Positions 1-4,201 of a stretch of DNA of 64,000 nt are shown piece after piece. The stretch is from contig CANGJI010000001.1 of NCBI GenBank assembly GCA_947454135.1, positions 1 to 64,000 of the forward strand. The letters run 5' to 3'. Source of the stretch: Sphingomonadaceae bacterium (GTDB lineage: Bacteria; Pseudomonadota; Alphaproteobacteria; Sphingomonadales; Sphingomonadaceae). The translations under genes and the position numbers were made by a program. The notes under the pieces were generated by a model. It was not told the DNA's origin and ran no database searches. It saw only the letters and a list, made by a program, of their open reading frames with translations. How positions within the stretch are numbered: the first letter of the stretch is position 1; the number at the start of each line of letters is the position of its first letter.

Positions 1-2612
<2,612 letters not shown>

Positions 2613-2836
2613 GAAAGGGTCAGCCTCTTGTCTGTACTCGGGCCGGCAGGAAGACCGGCGAAAACCACACGCGGCGTGTGGCGTCTGAGCATGAAACACG
2701 AAACGCCACCCATGGATTCCAACTGGATTCCCGGTGGCATTCGGCATCATCGCGTCAGACGAAACCCGGACCGCTTCCTTCCTGAGCCTTCCCCCGCGTA
2801 TGGGACGGCCTTGCTCGAAGTGGTGGGCGAGGTGGC

Positions 2837-2865
2837 CGGATAGGCGCAGAGGGCCGCATTGTCAA
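2837..2865 (-). promoter_or_regulatory. Candidate sigma70-type promoter for rpoB (TTGACA-N17-TATCCG)
   Basis: Minus strand: TTGACA (2865-2860), 17 nt spacer, TATCCG (2842-2837); about 220 nt upstream of the rpoB start. Confidence 0.5.
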
Positions 2866-2970
2866 CCGCGGCAGGCCTTGCCGAGCGGCGCGTTGCCTTG
2901 CTTTGCTTGACTCTTCTGCGCACTTGAGCCAATGCGCAGCCCGACCCGCGGGGCTTGCTTCGTGGTTCAT

Positions 2971-3021
2971 CCGTCCGAGACAGCTGGTGCAGGCTTCCTG
3001 CTTAATCTCCAGCCTAGACGG
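2971..3021 (+). ncRNA. Ribosomal protein L10 leader core
   Basis: Nested helices ccguc/gacgg (2971-2975/3017-3021), gcugg/ccagc (2983-2987/3009-3013), gcagg/ccugc (2989-2993/2997-3001) separated by GAGACA and UUAAUCU internal loops, upstream of rplJ. Confidence 0.75.
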
Positions 3022-3220
3022 GGAAAAGAGATTCCGGGCGCTTCGGCGCCCATGGCCTGATGGTCCGCTCCCGAGTGGAACACCATGGCCCGACGCGCAA
3101 ATCTGCGCGTTCTCCTTCCCCATTGTACGGACTCGCCCATGGTGCGCTTCGGTGCACCGTGGACATTGTAGCCGGCCGTTCGGGGTTTGCCCCGTCCGGT
3201 CACATGTGAAGGAGTATGGC

Positions 3221-3736
3221 ATGGATCGTTCGCAGAAAGCCGAATCGGTCGCCTTCCTGACCGAGGTGTTCAACGAGGCGGGCGCGGTGGTCATCACCCG
3301 CAACCTCGGCATGACGGTGGCCCAGTCCACCGCCCTGCGCATCAAGGTCCGCGAGGCGGGCGCTTCGTTCAAGGTTGCGAAGAACAGTCTGGCCAAGATT
3401 GCCGCCAAGGGCACCGCGTACGAGGGCGTTATCGACCTCTTCACCGGTCCCACCGGCATCGCCGCCTCGGCGGATCCGGTGGCGGCCGCCAAGGTCATCG
3501 TCGATTTCGCCAAGACCAACGACAAGCTCGAAATCGTTGGCGGTGCAATGGGCAGCGTCGTTCTCAACGCCGATGGTATCAAGGCTCTCGCCACGATGCC
3601 CTCGCTCGACGAGATGCGCGCCAAGCTCATCGGCCTCATTCAGGCTCCGGCGACCAAGATCGCCCAGCTCTCGACCGCTCCGGCGGCCAAGCTGGCCCGC
3701 GTCTTTGCTGCCTACGCCGAGAAGGACGCCGCGTAA
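3221..3736 (+). CDS. rplJ: 50S ribosomal protein L10
   Basis: [40 protein letters not shown]; precedes L7/L12. The longer ORF start at 2903 lies in the leader. Confidence 0.97.
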
Positions 3737-3823
3737 GCGCGACTGCAATCACAGACCTGTTTTTCCAAAACTGTCGCCCAAGAATTTTCGCATTTGGGCA
3801 AACCACATTGAGGAGTTATCATC

Positions 3824-4201
3824 ATGGCCGATATCGCCAATCTCGTCGCTGAACTTTCGAAGCTGACCGTTCTCGAAGCCGCTGACCTCGCCAAGGCCCT
3901 CGAAGAAGCATGGGGCGTCAGCGCCGCTGCTGCTGTTGCTGTTGCTGCCCCCGCGGGCGGCGGCGAAGCTGCTGCTCCGGTCGAAGAGAAGACCGAATTC
4001 GACGTCATCCTGACCGGCGACGGCGGCAAGAAGATCCAGGTCATCAAGGAAGTCCGCGCGATCACCAACCTCGGCCTCACCGAAGCCAAGGCCCTGGTGG
4101 AAGCCGCTCCGAAGGCGATCAAGGAAGGTGTCAACAAGGCCGAGGCCGAAGACATCAAGGCCAAGATCGAAGCCGCTGGCGGCACCGTCGAGATCAAGTA
4201 A
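3824..4201 (+). CDS. rplL: 50S ribosomal protein L7/L12
   Basis: [36 protein letters not shown], Ala-rich hinge, C-terminal [21 protein letters not shown]. Confidence 0.98.

Follow-up and report, generated by a model that had tools for sequence, protein, structure and literature searches.

A structured RNA leader of rpoB, typical of Sphingomonadaceae, that probably acts by conditional termination

The Lacto-rpoB RNA motif is located 5' of rpoB. The motif (Rfam RF01709), listed by Weinberg et al. (2010, PMC2864571), is a structured RNA named for rpoB, found in Lactobacillales only and unsettled in function. The rplL-rpoB attenuator of E. coli (cited in PMC4670729) is supposed to act by partial termination, which separates expression of rpoBC from that of the genes for ribosomal proteins. 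Two further systems are the L10(L12)4 leader of rplJL (Rfam RF00557), for which attenuation is described in B. subtilis (PMC4538822), and the put RNA of HK022 (PMC9378689), which is about 70 nt long, promoter-proximal, composed of two stem-loops, and situated upstream of terminators; put suppresses termination and binds the zinc-binding domain of beta'.

Herein, we describe a leader of rpoB in the window, i.e., the whole 64,000-nt stretch of DNA that was analysed (contig CANGJI010000001.1 of a Sphingomonadaceae bacterium whose closest named relatives are Novosphingobium). The whole analysis is computation on sequence, and its covariance-model E-values are rough. Like Lacto-rpoB, the leader is a structured RNA associated with rpoB in one bacterial group; like the L10 leader, it is structured and contains an intrinsic terminator, and the genes that the two leaders precede come from one ancestral operon. 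No resemblance to L10 sites, to the Lacto-rpoB motif, or to put held up in a test. The RF01709 covariance model (cmscan, also at permissive thresholds) and the RF00557 model gave no match in the window or in 32 related loci, a conserved UAA, which in L10-type sites is unpaired and bound by L10(L12)4, is absent from the core loops, and a kink-turn, looked for by eye, was not found. Rfam covariance models as a whole, permissive thresholds included, returned only chance matches elsewhere in the window and these 32 loci. The literature searched held no prior description of this leader, and rpoB is absent from the main text of a Zymomonas transcriptome paper. The core of the leader is found neither in Rfam nor in the literature searched. 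The features of the locus are the following.

1 to 2612, minus strand: rpoB coding sequence, with its ATG start at 2612, continuing beyond the window edge
2624 to 2629, minus strand: Shine-Dalgarno sequence AAGAGG of rpoB (AAGAGGC is almost invariant among relatives)
2642 to 2659, minus strand: hairpin 3, GCCGG (2659-2655) with CCGGC (2646-2642), just 5' of the ribosome-binding site
2665 to 2681, minus strand: hairpin 2, stem CCAC/GUGG; in the window, UUUU (2664-2661) comes next; the hairpin's loop (2674-2669) is complementary to the core loop (2799-2794)
2683 to 2760, minus strand: long hairpin, homologous to the intrinsic terminator of the family, as judged from its fold and comparison with relatives
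2766 to 2823, minus strand: core RNA domain, matched by covariance model R1 with 68 bits (E 1.6e-15)
2772 to 2777, minus strand: 3' arm of helix P1
2778 to 2784, minus strand: internal-loop strand CAGGAAG, conserved; of ACGAAUG type in Sphingomonas relatives
2785 to 2810, minus strand: helix P2 (2810-2802 with 2793-2785) and apical loop AUACGCGG (2801-2794)
2811 to 2816, minus strand: internal-loop strand GAGCAA, invariant alignment columns; of CGGGACA type in Sphingomonas relatives
2817 to 2822, minus strand: 5' arm of helix P1, pairing with 2777-2772 with one A-C mismatch in the window
2837 to 2865, minus strand: rpoB promoter as read from the sequence, TTGACA (2865-2860), a 17-nt spacer, and TATCCG (2842-2837)

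The original prediction, made from this one sequence, was of a long and structured rpoB leader transcribed from a promoter of its own. Comparison bears this out; a leader of about 220 nt is typical of Sphingomonadaceae. The promoter it had named, TTGACA-N17-TATCCG, is present at 2865-2837 (minus strand), and relatives have the consensus TTTGACA-N16-18-CCTATAT at the same place, of which the window's −10 element TATCCG is a weaker variant. Across the family, TTGAC-N17-20-YTAYA occurs 5' of rpoB in 104 of 138 leaders vs 0.1% of shuffles, a control that ignores relatedness. Transcription of rpoB would start near 2830 on the minus strand. The smaller elements that had been pointed out are likewise in place on this strand, namely CCACACGC-C-GCGTGTGG (2681-2665) followed by TTTT (2664-2661), the GCCGG/CCGGC stem (2659-2642), and GCCACC (2738-2733) with GGTGGC (2710-2705), enclosing a repeat that reads GGAATCC on the minus and GGATTCC on the plus strand. 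The leader stems are kept in close relatives, a comparison on which the claim could have failed.

Taken alone, the window gives a modest signal (fold stability z −2.1, with 5 of 200 shuffles equally stable), and a consensus scan of the window reported neither the rpoB promoter nor any terminator in the leader; the case thus rests on comparison. Searching 61 related genomes brought up the rpoB leader in relatives of the same genus. Thirty Novosphingobium leaders were easily aligned, with the consensus order of a TTTGACA-N17-CCTATA promoter followed by CGCTTC-GAGCAA-GGC...CCCATGCGCGGGG...GCC-nnGGAAG-GAAGCG. In some relatives, genes are inserted between rplJ and rpoB, and the leader remains attached to rpoB. 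Comparison shows that the leader is conserved far outside the window.

The window also has an open frame running from an ATG at 2750 into rpoB (2750-2613, minus strand), so that the leader could be coding and rpoB could begin there with an N-terminal extension. Such a start is extremely improbable: in 90 of 138 relatives (e.g., L003, L011, and L018) in-frame stops lie at most 138 nt 5' of rpoB, which refutes the extension, and the Shine-Dalgarno sequence and the ATGGC start of rpoB are almost invariant. The open frame is not conserved and so extends rpoB only by chance; automated gene calling could annotate it wrongly.

The core exists in two forms, each with its own covariance model, R1 for the Novosphingobium-type and R2 for the Sphingomonas-type core. 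In the genome of the window, R1 has a single full-strength match, at 2823-2766. Counted on an alignment made from sequence only, P1 and P2 of the Novosphingobium leaders reach a covariation score of 0.366 vs 0.166 in shuffles (0 of 500 shuffles reach it; relatedness ignored), and both sides have changed in 48 cells vs 17 in shuffles; within P2, six of the nine pairs covary. As a control, sliding the structure by 1-3 columns yields scores of 0.08-0.11 (maximum 0.105). Sphingomonas, Sphingopyxis, Sphingobium, and others have a diverged homologous core, YCGGGACAYG-P2-UnGCGCa-P2'-ACGAAUG. This form scores 0.569 vs 0.257 shuffled (0 of 500, again ignoring relatedness), with double changes in 14 of 15 pairs (118 cells vs 38 shuffled) and covariation in all eight pairs of the homologous P2. 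The R2 model locates the exact homologous site in two leaders of the other type, L052 and L012, but with E-values of 0.9 and 3.9. Since the two models barely detect each other, the homology of both forms is supported chiefly by position, architecture, and the common promoter/terminator frame. The invariant loops of the core look like a putative binding site. Separately, two resemblances were considered and rejected, namely mimicry of 23S rRNA, for which the shared words (ACGAATGG, TCGAGCAAG) are short only and were judged coincidence, and GGAAGGAAGC as the SRP RNA loop, for which an Rfam SRP match is absent and the helix context is different.

In the family sample, R1 finds the core in 69 and R2 in 68 of 151 genomes; five are on both lists, which places it in about 132 of 151. 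In the order sample the two models match 62 and 45 of 201 genomes, respectively, and a class sample of 385 Alphaproteobacteria held no credible core outside the family, with one weak match located in reading frames. The core is tied exclusively to rpoB, which follows directly 3' of it in all 60 credible loci fetched from the two order scans. The remaining three loci (L113, L114, and L145) were rejected as core copies elsewhere owing to their weak scores and their location inside reading frames; they are without rpoB. A promoter at the 5' edge of a structured RNA and a terminator at its end would also fit the anatomy of a small-RNA gene, whose RNA of roughly 110-130 nt acts in trans while rpoB is served merely on read-through. 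Against this, the core is single-copy and always adjoins rpoB upstream, and the distance from the U-run to the ATG is often just 40-60 nt, so short that rpoB could hardly have a second promoter there; the terminator is therefore bound to influence rpoB in cis. A purely trans-acting RNA is thus quite improbable, although a dual role as cis leader and small RNA is conceivable.

The terminator itself is recognized by structure. Between the core and rpoB, a hairpin of −8 kcal/mol or below followed by TTTT is found in 119 of 138 leaders vs 26% of shuffles (relatedness ignored), and at a stricter cut-off of −18 in 63% vs 6%. Its arms vary by genus (AAGGCUGC/GCGGCCUU, AAGCCGA/UCGGCUU, and AGUGCGG/CCGCACU), and thus structure, not sequence, is maintained. 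A hairpin with a U-run between promoter and start codon, the mark of an attenuator, is therefore found across the family; it is weak in the window. There, the U-tract of the long hairpin is degraded (UUUCGUGUUU, with UUU at 2703-2701 and 2696-2694), relatives read AGGCUGC..GCGGCCUUUU or an equivalent at the same place, and U-tracts are better in the close relatives L005, L032, and L117. A terminator-type hairpin before rpoB had thus been rightly foreseen, but the hairpin taken for the attenuator, 2665-2681 with its TTTT, is another than the one conserved as terminator in the family, which is the larger hairpin just 5' of it at 2760-2683. In the species of the window, termination at the long hairpin may be weak, or it may be partly shifted to hairpin 2 and its UUUU, which is a guess. 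In one relative, L021 (1130-1464), the terminator hairpin occurs twice in tandem and its first copy contains an N, which probably reflects faulty assembly.

Downstream of the terminator, hairpin 3 is kept in Novosphingobium relatives, and hairpin 2 reads GCCAC..CCGCGC..GUGGC in many of them, mostly without a U-run right at the stem. The loop and 3' arm of hairpin 2 are complementary to the core apical loop CCAUGCGCGG. With hairpin 2 delimited independently of this complementarity, 20 of 34 leaders pair at 10 of 10 positions and 11 at 9 of 10; the sum of 321/340 compares with 310 for permuted partners, and 0 of 10000 permutations reach it (relatedness ignored). A G-to-A change in the core goes together with C-to-U in the hairpin at separate places of the rpoB tree (L121, L120, L009, and L119/L125), as counted by eye on an RpoB N-terminal tree from a short alignment, and the loop-loop pair that is A-U in the window is G-C in its sister L004. 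These repeated independent compensatory changes point to a kissing-loop contact that links hairpin 2 to the core. Hairpin 2 is, on this evidence, an element at the level of the genus and pairs through its loop with that of the core. In a UUUGG subgroup, the hairpin 2 stem is preserved while one core pair is lost, so that a 6-bp kissing of loops is the simplest form of the contact. Most Erythrobacter-like leaders tested have CTCA-CGCGCA-TGAG in the same role. Loop-loop pairing sought in Sphingomonas-type leaders gave no signal, and in one Novosphingobium subclade the contact is absent in this form. Leaders of this subclade (L014, L015, L018, L021, L026, L027, L046, and L115) are without the usual hairpin 2 and carry a core-loop complement, CCGCGCGUGC and variants, within the terminator's 3' arm; pairing of this segment with the core loop would compete with termination.

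In the common form, the kissing partner lies 3' of the terminator and thus cannot alone decide termination. The leader might instead act post-transcriptionally, the core binding a protein, such as RNA polymerase or one of the ribosomal proteins, and altering rpoB translation or mRNA stability, e.g., through RNase III cutting the long hairpin, with the terminator-like hairpin a stability or processing element only. The kissing contact and hairpin 3 fit this, as both are situated 3' of the terminator and 5' of the Shine-Dalgarno sequence and are present only in read-through RNA; so do the long hairpin, which in relatives reaches beyond the U-run as in a processing site, and the failure to find an antiterminator. 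However, the U-runs 3' of the hairpin, needless for a processing site, are conserved well above chance, and no hairpin was observed masking the Shine-Dalgarno sequence. We regard this possibility as doubtful, albeit one to be taken seriously.

Conditional termination by a cis-acting leader of rpoBC, typical of Sphingomonadaceae, is what we consider probable. As 40-60 nt can be all that remains between terminator and rpoB, without an evident promoter, rpoB transcripts must read through, and with read-through obligatory, conditional termination with the core as sensor is the most economical reading. The dedicated promoter would have the compact core hairpin transcribed first, followed by the hairpin that would serve as an intrinsic terminator in most members, and rpoB would be reached solely by read-through. 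Depending on whether a factor is bound to the core, a larger or smaller share of polymerases would pass the terminator; we infer the regulation, the binding of the factor, and the direction in which the leader responds. In the Novosphingobium/Erythrobacter clade, the contact between core and hairpin 2 would tie the leader together after read-through and, formed only in read-through RNA, may serve stability or translation.

How the core would act is narrowed by the search for a competing antiterminator: complementarity of core and linker to either terminator arm is at shuffle level, and none is conserved. Unlike in the L10 leader, an antiterminator/anti-antiterminator set was thus not found. 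This speaks against a switch of the textbook kind; what remains is factor-dependent read-through or a direct effect on the polymerase. Like put, the core is a promoter-proximal structured RNA before a terminator, of a kind able to act on the polymerase directly; unlike the two stem-loops of put, it is one hairpin with two stacked helices around an internal loop. It seems unlikely that the core is an aptamer reporting RNA polymerase availability, bound by the polymerase in a put-like manner or by a nucleotide signal and setting terminator read-through directly. Were this so, the beta/beta' subunits would be under feedback control by RNA alone, kept through an entire bacterial family.

The gene order around rpoB bears on the origin of the leader. 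Other Alphaproteobacteria and basal Sphingomonadales have rplJ-rplL-rpoB co-directional, and in Sphingomonas-type genomes with rplJL in reach these genes are co-directional with rpoB but farther off. In the Novosphingobium/Erythrobacter clade, rplJL is inverted relative to rpoB (window 2612-4201; L032, L033, L046, L052, L055, L058, L059, L067, and L083); in the window, rplJ (start about 3221) and rplL (3824-4201) are divergent from rpoB. The stretch of about 250 nt 5' of rplJ (window 2967-3223, plus strand) is kept in relatives with strong hairpins and is probably a separate rplJL leader; the Rfam L10-leader has no match in it. The original prediction also suggested that termination in the leader could replace the rplL-rpoB attenuator of the classic operon. 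An origin of the leader as such a replacement after the separation is contradicted by the basal relatives L079 and L080, where rplL, promoter, core, terminator, and rpoB follow each other on one strand: the element predates the operon split and moved along with rpoB. In these two genomes the leader has the genetic place, the rplL-rpoB spacer, and the supposed role of the E. coli attenuator. It differs from the latter in its dedicated promoter, its conserved core 5' of the terminator, and its loop-loop contact, and in the window also in that rplJL is not co-directional with rpoB, leaving no classic attenuator position.

How bacteria balance the synthesis of RNA polymerase subunits is not fully understood, not even in E. 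coli. In the present case, a well-defined and strongly covarying RNA precedes rpoBC across most of a large family, for which exact helices, loops, and compensatory mutations are now available. Its position in the rplL-rpoB spacer of basal relatives traces a regulatory element that stayed with rpoB as an ancient operon broke up.
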